From NCBI RefSeq assembly GCF_014701235.1, contig NZ_AP022873.1:744001-808000 (forward strand): a DNA stretch of 64,000 nt, read 5' to 3'. The position numbers were made by a program, and so were the translations under genes. The notes beneath the pieces are model-generated. The model ran no database searches. It was given only the letters and a program-made list of their open reading frames with translations, and was not told where the DNA came from. Of this stretch, positions 6,604 through 10,540 are shown one piece after another (positions within the stretch are counted from its first letter, which is position 1; every line of letters begins with the position of its first letter). The stretch comes from Dissulfurispira thermophila. GTDB lineage: Bacteria; Nitrospirota; Thermodesulfovibrionia; Thermodesulfovibrionales; Dissulfurispiraceae.

Positions 6604-6945
6604 ATGAGGGCATTAGGCAAAAGGATAGAACTTCTAAAAATCATTGCTCATCCTGTGAGGATAAAGATTCTTGAAGAGCTTACAAAAGGCGTAAAGTGCG
6701 TGAGTGACCTTGAGGAGTTCCTTGATATAAGCCAGCCAAAAGTATCCCAGCACCTTGCACTCTTAAGGCAATATGGAGTAATAGACTATTACATGGACGG
6801 AAGGCTCAGGTGCTATTTTCTCAAAGACCCGATAATCCCTGATATCCTTGAGATTCTAAAAAAAGACTACATTGAAGAACTTCCAGCACCTGCCTGCTGT
6901 CCAGTAACAAAAAAAGGCAAATATCCAGGTAAAAGGAGGCATTAA
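6604..6945 (+). CDS. ArsR-family transcriptional regulator
   Basis: A 113-residue winged-helix protein (HPVRIKILEEL, SQPKVSQHLALLRQYGVI) of the ArsR/SmtB family. The start at 6604 has GGAGGTGAGG upstream; a longer in-frame extension from 6403 lies inside the preceding gene. Cys near GVKCVSDL and a C-terminal CC pair (PAPACCP) could bind a metal or sense reactive sulfur, as in the related SqrR/BigR regulators. That is inference. It is the first gene of the dsrE/F/H-like operon: its TAA is directly followed by the next ATG, so it probably controls sulfur-relay expression. Confidence 0.88.
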   Translation: MRALGKRIELLKIIAHPVRIKILEELTKGVKCVSDLEEFLDISQPKVSQHLALLRQYGVIDYYMDGRLRCYFLKDPIIPDILEILKKDYIEELPAPACCPVTKKGKYPGKRRH

Positions 6946-7290
6946 ATGCAAAGGGAGATCGTGATGTTCCTTTCAACAACGCCTTATAGTTTTGAAAATA
7001 CCCACACCATATTCAAACTTGCAGATGCTGCATTAAAAAAGGGACAAAAAGTGAGGCTTATCGCCTCTGGTGATGGTGTTTTCTCAATTGTCAAAGGACA
7101 GGTTCCACGTGCATTATCCGCACTGGAAGATCTTGTTGGTAGAGGTCTCAAGGTTGATATATGAACTGGCTGTATGCAACTCCGCGGTCTTGCGGATGAG
7201 GATGCTGTCGAGGGCGGAGAGATGAGTTCTCTGAAAGGTCTCTTTAATGTAATCAAGGCAAATCCCATTTTTTTAAATTTCGGTGTATAG
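6946..7290 (+). CDS. DsrE-like protein, candidate selenoprotein (Sec73)
   Basis: The frame from ATG 6946 meets an in-frame TGA at 7162-7164 but continues 41 more codons to TAG at 7288-7290, giving 114 residues. The continuation keeps strong DsrE-family character: GLKVDI-U-TGCMQLRGLADED. The TGA falls where homologues carry the conserved cysteine before xxCxxRG, making a UxxC redox motif. A 5-bp hairpin with apical loop GGUCUU follows (7181-7196), resembling a bacterial SECIS. DsrE-like selenoproteins have been reported in other bacteria. DsrE/TusD proteins carry persulfide sulfur. Translation start has AAAGGAGG. The alternative is a nonsense mutation, since genes further downstream are decaying. 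No selenocysteine-machinery gene is in the window. Confidence 0.82.
7181..7196 (+). promoter_or_regulatory. SECIS-like hairpin after in-frame UGA
   Basis: Perfect 5-bp stem UCCGC/GCGGA closing the loop GGUCUU. The stem begins 16 bases after the UGA and the loop G lies about 22 bases after it, within the usual bacterial SECIS distance. The loop matches the GGUCU apical loop known from E. coli fdhF. Confidence 0.72.
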
Positions 7291-7300
7291 GGGGGAGTAT

Positions 7301-7654
7301 ATGGGAAGCATAAGCATAATCTTGAGAAGACCTCCATACGGCACTGTTGATGCACCGGAAGCAATCCGTCATGCCCTTGGAGGCATAATCGAGGACATGA
7401 GTGTGAGTTTGATACTCGTAGACGGAGGTGTGAATGTAGCACGAAAGGGGCAGGACATATCTAATACCGAATATTCAAGCATGGAGGCTGCAATTAAAGA
7501 TTGTATTGATATGGGCGTTGAAGTCTATGTTGATAAAGCATCCATAAAAGGTGAGCATCTTGAGGTCGAAAAACTCATAGATGGTGTGGTTATTACTGAT
7601 GAATTAGAGATTGCTGAGATTATAAAAAAAACAGATACAACCATGATTTTTTAG
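7301..7654 (+). CDS. DsrF/TusC-like sulfur relay protein
   Basis: A 117-residue DsrE/F-fold protein (SISIILRRPPYGTVDAPEAIRHALGG ... VSLILVDGGVNVARKGQD), the DsrF/TusC type found in DsrEFH heterohexamers that pass persulfide sulfur. The start at 7301 follows GGGGGAG at ideal spacing; an in-frame ATG at 7283 has no such signal. It lies 10 bases after the selenoprotein candidate and 10 before the DsrH-like gene. The set therefore forms a compact three-subunit operon. Confidence 0.85.
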   Translation: MGSISIILRRPPYGTVDAPEAIRHALGGIIEDMSVSLILVDGGVNVARKGQDISNTEYSSMEAAIKDCIDMGVEVYVDKASIKGEHLEVEKLIDGVVITDELEIAEIIKKTDTTMIF

Positions 7655-7664
7655 GGAGGAAATA

Positions 7665-7946
7665 ATGCTTGTTATCATTAAGAGTTCACCTGATACAGCA
7701 GAGGGCAAAAGGGGAGTAAAACTTGCAAGGGACATGGCTGGTGATATTTGCCTGATACAAAATGCAGTATATTTTGCTCAAAAAGGTAGGATCGAAGATT
7801 TTTGTGGAACAGCTTATGTCCTTGACGAAGATGCAAGATTGAGAGGACTAAAATCAGAGGATATAGACAAAGGGATTAAGGAAATAAGTTACAATGGGCT
7901 TGTAGATTTAATGGTAAAAGAGGATAAGGTAGTGGGAATGTTTTAG
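7665..7946 (+). CDS. DsrH/TusB-like sulfur relay protein
   Basis: A 93-residue DsrH/TusB-family protein. The usual features are the N-terminal LVIIKSSPDT strand and the central VYFAQKGRIED...GTAYVLDEDARLRGL region. AGGGAGG precedes the ATG. It closes the arsR-dsrE-dsrF-dsrH-like operon and presumably joins the other two proteins in a persulfide-transfer complex. The sequence directly after its stop switches into a truncated sulfide:quinone oxidoreductase, suggesting a deletion that removed the intervening gene starts. Confidence 0.82.
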   Translation: MLVIIKSSPDTAEGKRGVKLARDMAGDICLIQNAVYFAQKGRIEDFCGTAYVLDEDARLRGLKSEDIDKGIKEISYNGLVDLMVKEDKVVGMF

Positions 7947-8280
7947 GAGTTTGCCTTCTCTTCCATGGCTGATTATCGGACATAGAAGACCTGATGACAT
8001 AAAACTAAAGGTTTCTGAAATACTAAAGCCAAAAGCTATAGATTTTATTAACGAGGCTGCAGTAAGAATAGAGCATGATTCGTCAAAGGTATACACTGCA
8101 AAAAGAGAAATTCCGTACAACTATCTCGTAATATCAACAGGCCCGTATCTCTCATTTGATGAGGTGCAAGGGCTTGGTCCTGAAAAAGGATACACAGACT
8201 GCACCTTTACCCTTGATCATGCTATAAAGACCAATCTTTCATGGAAGAAACTCCTCAAAGAACCTATGACCATCATATGA
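7942..8280 (+). pseudogene. sulfide:quinone oxidoreductase fragment
   Basis: The frame reads SLPSLPWLIIGHRRPDDIKL ... REIPYNYLVISTGPYLSFDEVQGLGPEKGYTDCTF, typical of the middle of FAD-dependent sulfide:quinone oxidoreductases (SQR). The N-terminal dinucleotide-binding GxGxxG region is absent. The frame begins right at the DsrH-like stop and breaks off after KKLLKEPMTII at a TGA. About two thirds of a normal protein of some 400 residues is missing. It was probably a functional partner of the DsrEFH-like genes before deletion. Confidence 0.75.
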
Positions 8281-8832
8281 ACTCGCATTCAAAATGGATG
8301 CAGAGCTTAGGAAAAGGAAAAAAAGGGGAAGATACGTTTTACATAGCATGGGACCCTGTTGCAAGAGATACCTTCGGTGCAGAGATGTTCAAATTGATGG
8401 CAATCTTTGCTCCCCTTGCAGGTCTGATAATGCTTGTTGTGAGGTATCTCATGTTCACGGATCTATTCCTTCTCAGTCACATTGATGATGGATGCAATGG
8501 TGAGCATTATCTGGAGCATGGGTCTTTTGATAGGAGCAGGAATCCCTGTTCACATCATGAGTTAAATGGCTCCTGTATTCTTTATGGCTATTGCAATAGA
8601 CAGCATCCATATATTCAATTAATTCTACTTCTGTTTCAGTGAGATTAAAAATAAGAGACTTGTGATCATATAGACAATGAGATCTGTTGGAAGGCCTATC
8701 CGTTACACAGCAGCAACAACCGCAGCAAATATGTATTATAGCTACAAAATATCATGGATTGATAAGGCAAACTTCCTGACTTTAAAAGAAGAATCCTTTT
8801 ATCAGAAATGCAACAATGCCTATGAGGTTTAA
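8281..8832 (+). pseudogene. MMPL/RND exporter remnant joined to LolA-like remnant
   Basis: Reading across frames recovers pieces of an MMPL/RND-type membrane transporter: DTFGAEMFKLMAIFAPLAG, then after a frameshift near 8465 MVSIIWSMGLLIGAGIPVHIM, MAIAIDSIHIFN and RSVGRPIRYTAATTAA, with internal stops. Just past 8730 the frame continues as YKISWIDKANFLTLKEE. That resembles the lipoprotein-sorting (LolA-like) protein commonly encoded beside such exporters. The junction looks like a deletion fusing two neighbouring genes. The 3' end overlaps the minus-strand coiled-coil gene. Confidence 0.65.
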
Positions 8833-9138
8833 GATTACAATTATATATAGTCTGTCAAAGCGTTTATTGATGTTATCAAAGCGTTCGTTGGCATCAAGCA
8901 TGAATGAGTCAAAGCGTTTGTTAATGTTATCAAAGCGTTCGTTGACATCCAGCATGAAGGTGTCAAGGCGTTTGTTAGTTTCGTCAATTCGCTTATTGAT
9001 ATTAGCAAATTCTTCTTTTGTTTCTGATTTAAAATCCCTTATCTCATCCCGTATTAAATCCAATTCTCTGAAGATAAAAGTTAGGGGATCCGCCTTATAC
9101 AGAATGTCTTCTTTCTTTTCTTCTGTTTGCGGTGCCAT
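8782..9138 (-). CDS. coiled-coil protein with C-terminal membrane anchor
   Basis: A 118-residue protein: acidic N-terminus (MAPQTEEKKED), a long helical region with near-identical 18-residue repeats (NERFDNINKRFDSFMLDA), and a C-terminal hydrophobic helix (LYIIVILNLIGIVAFLIKGFFF). The repeats are also nearly identical in DNA (54-bp units), so their number may vary between strains. I chose the ATG at 9138; an upstream ATG at 9177 would overlap a promoter-like element at 9146-9173. Neither start has a clear Shine-Dalgarno. Similar small tail-anchored coiled-coil proteins are common and of unknown function. The gene lies inside the remains of the exporter/outer-membrane gene cluster. Confidence 0.65.
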   Translation of the reverse strand: MAPQTEEKKEDILYKADPLTFIFRELDLIRDEIRDFKSETKEEFANINKRIDETNKRLDTFMLDVNERFDNINKRFDSFMLDANERFDNINKRFDRLYIIVILNLIGIVAFLIKGFFF

Positions 9139-9636
9139 ATCTTTTATTATATTAATTCTAACAGTAATGTCAAGCATTACTTATGCTCAGGATATCTCTA
9201 TTCACGGTTTCTTTCAGGGAAACTATTCCTTCAGCACGAGGGCAAATCATGCTGGAGGCGATTTCAAATGGGGAGATGTGAGAGCCCAATTAAGGCTCGA
9301 GGTATCAAAAGGGAGACTTAGAGTTGTATGCATGACTATTCGGAATACAAGAAAAATCAGCCTGCAGGACTTCCCATAGATAAAAGACTTTATCAGCTTG
9401 CCACGATAAGGCTGACACAGCTTCTGATGCACCAGAACTTAAGGCTTAGCTTTTTTTCCTTTTACAGTCCGTCAGATGGAGATTACATGCTGAATCCTGA
9501 GATTAAATACAACTTCTCCGACCACATCTGGGCAGCAATCGGAGGTAATATCTTTGGCGGAGGAGAGAGATGGAGCCAATTCGGGCAACTGGTTAAAAAT
9601 GATAATATTTATTTACAGTTGAGGTGTGAATTCTAA
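9139..9636 (+). pseudogene. outer-membrane beta-barrel protein, broken
   Basis: A signal-peptide tail and mature start (SSITYA then QDISIHGFFQGNYSFSTRA) lead into barrel-like sequence (KWGDVRAQLRLEVSK). After a frameshift and apparent internal deletion near 9325 the next frame resumes and ends in the terminal barrel strands (DGDYMLNPEIKYNFSDH, IYLQLRCEF). Such proteins of the DUF1302-like type usually accompany MMPL exporters, so this is the third member of the same decaying cluster. The start codon is lost. Confidence 0.6.
9146..9173 (-). promoter_or_regulatory. possible promoter of the coiled-coil gene
   Basis: Minus strand TTGACA (9168-9173), 16-base spacer, TATAAT (9146-9151). Both hexamers are perfect. 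Predicted transcription begins at or within a base or two of the ATG at 9138, implying a leaderless message. It lies in former signal-peptide coding DNA, so it could be fortuitous. Confidence 0.4.
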
Positions 9637-10016: not shown

Positions 10017-10028
10017 ATGTTTGAAATA

Positions 10029-10289
10029 ATGAAAACATTATCTCTTTCAGAGGCAAAAATGAAACTGAGTAGTCTTGTAAATTCGGTTTGCAGAACAAAT
10101 GAAGAGATCATTATTACAAAAAACGGCTCTCCTGCTGCCGTACTGATCAGCCCTGATGAGCTTGAGAGTTGGAAAGAGACAGTCGGTATACGTTCTGCCC
10201 CTGACTTTATGGCTGAGATTAAGAAAAACTTGGCTACTTTGAAAAAAGGCAAGGCAAAACTCTATACTCTTGAGGAACTGTTCAGATAA
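10029..10289 (+). CDS. Phd/YefM-family antitoxin
   Basis: An 86-residue Phd/YefM antitoxin. The N-terminal DNA-binding fold is visible in MKTLSLSEAKMKLSSLVNSV and EEIIITKNGSPAAVLISPDELE, followed by a C-terminal toxin-neutralising tail. The start at 10029 matches the family start; an alternative ATG at 10017 is possible, and AAGAGG at 10011 is rather far from 10029. Its stop codon is immediately followed by the ATG of a RelE/ParE-type toxin that is truncated, so the antitoxin appears orphaned. Confidence 0.85.
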   Translation: MKTLSLSEAKMKLSSLVNSVCRTNEEIIITKNGSPAAVLISPDELESWKETVGIRSAPDFMAEIKKNLATLKKGKAKLYTLEELFR

Positions 10290-10463
10290 ATGAGTATACA
10301 TAGGCTAAAGATGTCTGATGAGACAGCAGAATTAATCCGCACCCTACATCCAGGCATTAAACGGAAAATTAAGGCAGCATTAAAGGTTATTTTAGATGAC
10401 CATTGGTCAGGTATGGCATTAAAAAATGAACTTGAAGGACTTCAAAGTTTTAAAGGATTTTTA
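10290..10463 (+). pseudogene. RelE/ParE-family toxin, C-terminus lost at tRNA-Asp
   Basis: Starts directly after the antitoxin stop. Residues MSIHRLKMSDETAELI...HPGIKRKIKAAL...DDHWSGMALKNELEGLQSFK follow the RelE/ParE pattern. After SFK the expected R-(Y/F)R-(I/V) strand and C-terminal catalytic region are missing. The frame instead runs into the antisense of tRNA-Asp (reading GRGSNPRPPA) and stops. About one third of the toxin is gone, so it is presumably inactive. Confidence 0.75.
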
Positions 10464-10540
10464 TGGCGGGGCGGACGGGGCTCGAACCCGCGACCTCCGG
10501 CGTGACAGGCCGGCGTTCTAACCAGCTGAACTACCGCCCC
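10464..10540 (-). tRNA. tRNA-Asp (GTC)
   Basis: A 77-nt cloverleaf on the minus strand: acceptor stem GGGGCGG/CCGCCCC, D-loop GTTCAGCTGGTTAGAAC, anticodon loop CTGTCAC with anticodon GTC, T-loop GGTTCGAGCCC, discriminator G and encoded CCA (10464-10466). It forms a pair with tRNA-Val 11 bases upstream. Confidence 0.95.

Follow-up and report, generated by a model that had tools for sequence, protein, structure and literature searches.

The locus at 6946-7290 of the window, by which we mean the whole stretch of 64,000 nucleotides that was analyzed, raises the question of whether an in-frame TGA ends a short gene or encodes a selenocysteine (Sec) in a longer one. Translation of this plus-strand frame showed that the TGA at 7162-7164 (codon 73) is its sole internal stop. 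The product reads MQREIVMF...KVDI-U-TGCMQLRG...FGV, 41 codons follow the TGA up to the TAG at 7288-7290, and directly 3' of that TAG lie a G-rich ribosome site and then the dsrF ATG at 7301. A sequence-only reading of this DNA had described a frame running 41 codons past the TGA, through TGCMQLRG, to a TAG before the dsrF ribosome site, and its coordinates and counts were right. It had also predicted that ordinary annotation would shorten this gene, dsrE, to 72 residues, which is the length given by mechanical gene calling. The observation itself (in-frame TGA, continuing frame and hairpin) was thus confirmed, and its interpretation as a selenoprotein is supported by the results below.

To see how codon 73 fares in relatives, we scanned genome contigs and obtained 24 close dsrE relatives that are 78-93% identical. 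Their titles name Nitrospirae, Nitrospirota or Thermodesulfovibrionales, the exception being one uncultured bacterium. Codon 73 was TGA in all 24, and all 114 residues were kept in 22 of them, with L031 stopping at 109 and L033 cut by a contig end. When 396 genomes of the phylum were then searched with a profile, dsrE fell into two groups. Group A, the window's kind, had 31 matches with E below 1e-45, and every one of them carries a single TGA. Group B (E about 1e-34 to 1e-17) is the same operon gene, 41-49% identical, with the TGA, the hairpin and a motif that is mostly UGGC; the TGA was present in 64 genomes. Altogether, 79 distinct TGA genes were gathered. Family f23 (G012, G021, G030 and G045) has Cys at position 73 in a CGTC motif and no hairpin, and Cys was also found at the Sec position in G183 and in the host genome's own paralogue. 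The sequence-only reading had placed the TGA at the position of the DsrE cysteine; every relative checked had TGA or Cys at codon 73, and a relative with neither, which it had regarded as evidence against a selenoprotein, was not seen. The protein tree separates three sets, namely group A, group B and the Cys lineage, the last of which lies beside group B (92/70). This tree would fit either one ancestral Sec that was lost in f23 or two gains, and the data allow both.

These relatives also bear on an alternative, that UGA 73 is a true stop, the product has only 72 residues and the downstream frame is decaying. The mechanical gene call agrees with it, and the adjoining SQR and RND genes have decayed in the same genome. 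However, the 41 downstream codons are kept, with synonymous changes, in relatives 78-93% identical, a 72-residue product would be without the active-site residue, and neither TAA nor TAG ever stands for TGA at codon 73 in 83 distinct genes. A true stop is, therefore, extremely improbable. The sequence-only reading had named decay of the downstream frame as a point against itself; the frame is intact in close relatives, but one distant homologue is frameshifted after the TGA. This is the group B dsrE of G240 (L074 2979-3324; G240:C46), in which about 8 bases are gone right after the TGA and the hairpin is kept, and the frameshift could be either decay or an assembly error. Two apparent cases of TGA plus TAA (G199 and G104) turned out to be the normal terminal stop, and a short match in G114 reflects a contig end. 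A search of plasmids gave two distant matches.

The next question was whether the mRNA carries a signal for Sec insertion. A SECIS-like hairpin spans 7181-7196 on the plus strand, with a core stem at 7182-7185/7192-7195 and the loop GGTCTT at 7186-7191, so that the core reads CCGC-GGTCTT-GCGG at 7182-7195. An extra U-A pair, 7181/7196, accounts for the spacing of 16 bases from the TGA that had been given earlier together with an fdhF-like loop. With this pair the spacing is right, and the loop word GGTCT is truly common to both elements, since the fetched E. coli fdhF sequence reads TGACACGGCCCATCGGTTGCAGGTCTGCACC with GGTCT in its loop. Like the fdhF SECIS, the window hairpin is in frame and just 3' of the UGA, but its stem is different and its loop begins about 3 bases further on. 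The loop GGTCTT occurs in 29/33 of group A, whereas group B elements depart from fdhF in that their loops are mostly CGTGCN.

The folding energy of the hairpin was unexceptional (z -0.69; 43/200 shuffles folded at least as well) and was discarded as support for a SECIS element, and an Rfam search of 6940-7300 at E up to 1 gave no match. The case is made instead by conservation at synonymous sites and by covariation. In group A, codons 80-83 (CGC GGT CTT GCG) have codon homozygosities of 0.94, 0.94, 0.88 and 1.0, the four highest of the gene, compared to a mean of 0.42 over the 89 other codons. In the 79 distinct TGA genes, 370 of the 395 cells of the five core pairs are paired, while sliding the partner by 1-4 bases left 34-59% of pairs. 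None of 1000 column shuffles reached 370 (mean 325), although these shuffles ignore kinship and serve as a control, not as a probability. Two-sided changes were found in L027, where C-G became A-U, between group A and group B, and inside group B as U-A / C-G exchanges. The hairpin is lost in the Cys homologues, as the four Cys genes formed core pairs in only 8/20 cells. Conservation, with no help from folding energy, shows that a stem-loop 3' of the UGA is under selection. The TGA in 24/24 relatives and the codon homozygosity at the hairpin together place the dsrE element far beyond chance.

Decoding of a Sec codon requires dedicated machinery, and the sequence-only reading had proposed a search for selA, selB, selD and tRNA-Sec. 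All four were found in the host genome, a single contig of 2,370,875 bases, so none of the three conditions that the reading had held against itself, lack of selB or tRNA-Sec being the first, was borne out. SelB (378 bits), SelA (630 bits) and SelD (327 bits) matched over curated cut-offs, and a tRNA-Sec scored 65.4 bits at 1899596-1899689, with the anticodon TCA according to ARAGORN. The SelD gene is itself interrupted close to its start by an in-frame TGA (L089 around 1520-1570; G000:C1 about 665.5 kb), so SelD is probably a selenoprotein as well. Among the 396 genomes of the phylum, SelB was present in 86/91 with a TGA-type gene and 86/305 others (Fisher p 7e-32, uncorrected for kinship). 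The TGA-type genomes without SelB (G034, G041, G073, G084 and G308) are fragmented assemblies that are 74-96% complete. SelB was also found in one Cys genome (G012). Another possible explanation is that UGA 73 is decoded as a different amino acid, Cys or Trp, free of selenium. Nothing in its favor was found. The complete Sec machinery, the constrained SECIS-like element, a SelD with its own in-frame TGA and the co-occurrence of TGA-type genes with SelB all speak against this, and it would be a great surprise if it were true. The Sec-DsrE arrangement is thus shared by many selenium-using Nitrospirota.

What kind of protein would carry this Sec? With Cys set at 73, the dsrE product scored 47.2 bits against Pfam DsrE (PF02635), over the gathering cut-off of 22.7. 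Against the TusD/DsrE equivalog TIGR03012 it scored 15.3 bits, under the curated cut-off of 89.25. The window DsrE would therefore be DsrE-like in function without being filed under TusD, and none of the NCBIfam models matches it over its cut-off. Alignment of the 114-residue product with DsrE families, the check that had been suggested from the sequence alone, put residue 73 at Cys78 of E. coli TusD (hhalign, E 6e-4, with a probability of just 28%) and at the first Cys of CKTC in YchN. The latter (PDB 1jx7; E 1e-12) is the best full-length solved relative, and its CKTC stands opposite UTGC with Cys, not Sec. The AlphaFold model of the window DsrE was of middling confidence (pLDDT 71, pTM 0.67) but matched DsrE-fold structures at Z 9-11.5 and rmsd 2.3-3.1 over 97-109 residues, clearly higher than the unrelated rows at about 6. 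PDB profile matches to designed pentatricopeptide repeats were rejected, as they are sums of weak repeats, none of which passes alone. In Allochromatium vinosum, sulfur bound by DsrE-Cys78 is passed on to DsrC, and this residue is indispensable in vivo (PMC3397948). By alignment, then, residue 73 stands at the catalytic, sulfur-carrying Cys position of TusD/DsrE.

The neighboring genes described next all lie on the plus strand. An ArsR/SmtB-type repressor gene, arsR, precedes dsrE at 6604-6945 (HTH_5, 49 bits; NF033788, 75.9 bits, over cut-off). Its four cysteines (32, 70, 98 and 99) are invariant in 30/30 loci, and the tail APACCPVTKKGKYPG is strongly conserved in the same 30. A dsrF/tusC-like gene at 7301-7654 (Pfam DsrE, 46.3 bits; TusC is the best NCBIfam model) and a dsrH/tusB-like gene at 7665-7946 (Pfam DsrH, 46.5 bits; TIGR03011, 51 bits, over cut-off) follow. 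The Pfam and NCBIfam matches thus bear out the DsrEFH-like gene set with an ArsR regulator that had been read from the sequence. Across Nitrospirota the same operon is met again and again in the order arsR-dsrE(Sec)-dsrF-dsrH-SQR-RND, and dsrE, dsrF and dsrH are adjacent in the window and in nearly all loci. The dsrF genes group by dsrE type, splitting into A and B as dsrE does, whereas A and B types are intermingled in the ArsR tree (one-clade test, p-AU 2e-5). Co-segregation of dsrE and dsrF would fit a physical pair.

The last two genes of the operon are remnants in the window. Using tblastn with the intact L024 gene, residues 60-172 of 417 of an SQR-like flavoprotein were located at 7942-8277, and with the intact L012 gene, residues 182-325 of 792 of an RND/MMPL transporter, in two frames, at 8298-8730. 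The remnants at 7942-8730 are fused by deletion, and both genes are intact in relatives. The operon's SQR-like protein keeps three cysteines. The nearest NCBIfam SQR model, which has a cut-off of 525 bits, gave it only 94, so its name is limited to SQR-like. Since there is a known type III SQR with Sec, the operon SQR genes were inspected for an in-frame TGA; none was found within the coding part, and TGAs seen in the SQR loci L026 and L076 belong to the 5' leader. In the operon's DsrH proteins, the Cys20-type residue is not among the frequent cysteines.

Considering all of these results, 6946-7290 is likely to encode a selenoprotein DsrE subunit of a DsrEFH/TusBCD-type complex in which Sec73 replaces the sulfur-carrying cysteine. 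UGA 73 would be decoded as Sec through SelB, tRNA-Sec and the hairpin at 7181-7196, placing Sec73 where TusD/DsrE has its catalytic Cys78. Sec73 would most likely take sulfane sulfur as an Se-S species, and in most relatives the source could be the co-encoded SQR-like flavoprotein. Since the adjoining SQR of the window is broken, the source in the host organism would have to be another. Sec73 may then pass the sulfur to an acceptor such as DsrC or release it reductively, in which case Cys76 of UxxC would be the resolving thiol. Contact with reactive sulfur or another thiol-reactive compound would make the cysteine-rich ArsR-type repressor release the operon. For the Sec codon, the constrained SECIS-like element, the Sec machinery, the active-site position, the operon and the dsrE-dsrF co-segregation, the sequences themselves provide the evidence. 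We infer the chemistry, sulfur donor, acceptor and inducing signal of Sec-DsrEFH, as well as the persulfide role and "highly reactive" chemistry proposed in the sequence-only reading.

Several findings count against a DsrE of the sulfur relay: the 15 versus 89 bits for the TusD equivalog, YchN rather than DsrE as the nearest full-length solved relative, the hhalign probability of 28%, the lack of a frequent Cys20-type residue in DsrH, the broken SQR and the absence of UxxC from TusD, in which Cys78 is the only nearby Cys. The main rival is that the selenoprotein is a YchN-like UxxC redox enzyme that reduces polysulfides, persulfides or other oxidants and is not a sulfur carrier. Group A has UxxC without exception and the other members almost always have it, YchN has CxxC, and most UxxC selenoproteins are redox enzymes (PMC13188914). 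On the other hand, the gene lies in a dsrEFH set adjoining an SQR-like gene and co-segregates with dsrF, both of which are expected of a sulfur-relay complex. A redox enzyme is thus a real but unlikely alternative to the sulfur-carrying DsrE.

DsrE-like selenoproteins were known in other bacteria, as had been stated in the sequence-only reading. Those with UxxC were predicted in 2005 from two Sargasso Sea sequences (PMC1088965), followed by predictions in Desulfovibrio vulgaris in 2006 (PMC1794560) and, in 2008, in the GOS data (PMC2398784). In a review of 2026 they are counted among the high-confidence predictions (PMC13188914). The published family, a few marine sequences and that of D. vulgaris, was compared with the window DsrE by Pfam family and motif, and shares PF02635, Sec in UxxC and a bacterial SECIS adjoining the UGA. 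Our literature searches, which covered the main texts of openly accessible papers, found no description of DsrE-like selenoproteins from Nitrospirota, as part of a dsrEFH operon or as two clades that can replace each other. The kind of selenoprotein is therefore already known, and a Sec-DsrEFH operon, or its distribution across the phylum, did not turn up in this literature. DsrEFH of A. vinosum and TusBCD of E. coli share the gene order E-F-H, the DsrE fold and a catalytic Cys78 on which residue 73 aligns. In contrast to them, the window set has Sec for Cys, an extra Cys three residues on, ArsR and SQR-like partners, and scores far under the TusD/TusC equivalog cut-offs.

Selenium would here sit on the atom that carries sulfur in the DsrE family, and an Se-S bond would form and break with each turn. 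Ordinary gene calling would shorten the Sec-dsrE genes, leaving an annotation gap: 79 distinct TGA genes were gathered here, and the window DsrE matches no NCBIfam model over its cut-off. The locus ties selenium to sulfur metabolism in a phylum whose known members include sulfate reducers and a sulfur disproportionator. The host genome has dsrA, two dsrC-type genes and, about 10 kb from dsrA, a Cys-based DsrH-DsrE-DsrF-TusA set (L087 1125-2485; G000:C1 about 2300.5-2301.8 kb) with CEAC opposite UTGC. The sequence-only reading had noted neither this second set, nor the degraded SQR and RND genes, nor the two Nitrospirota clades of DsrE-like selenoproteins. The gain from selenium is testable, since controls are at hand in the natural Cys lineage and in the host genome's own Cys paralogue. 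The chances are even that Sec-DsrEFH is a widespread Nitrospirota sulfur-trafficking module, in which two clades with different SECIS loops are interchangeable in one operon, and that it runs beside the Cys-based DsrEFH-TusA set near dsrAB, giving a cell selenium and sulfur versions of the relay for different tasks.

Two other features of the window were seen. By eye, 10017-10505 looks like a Phd/RelE-type toxin-antitoxin pair, the end of the second ORF resembling a tRNA region that has been translated spuriously. A small ORF on the minus strand at 8782-9177 is internally repetitive, with NINKRFD units of about 30 bases.
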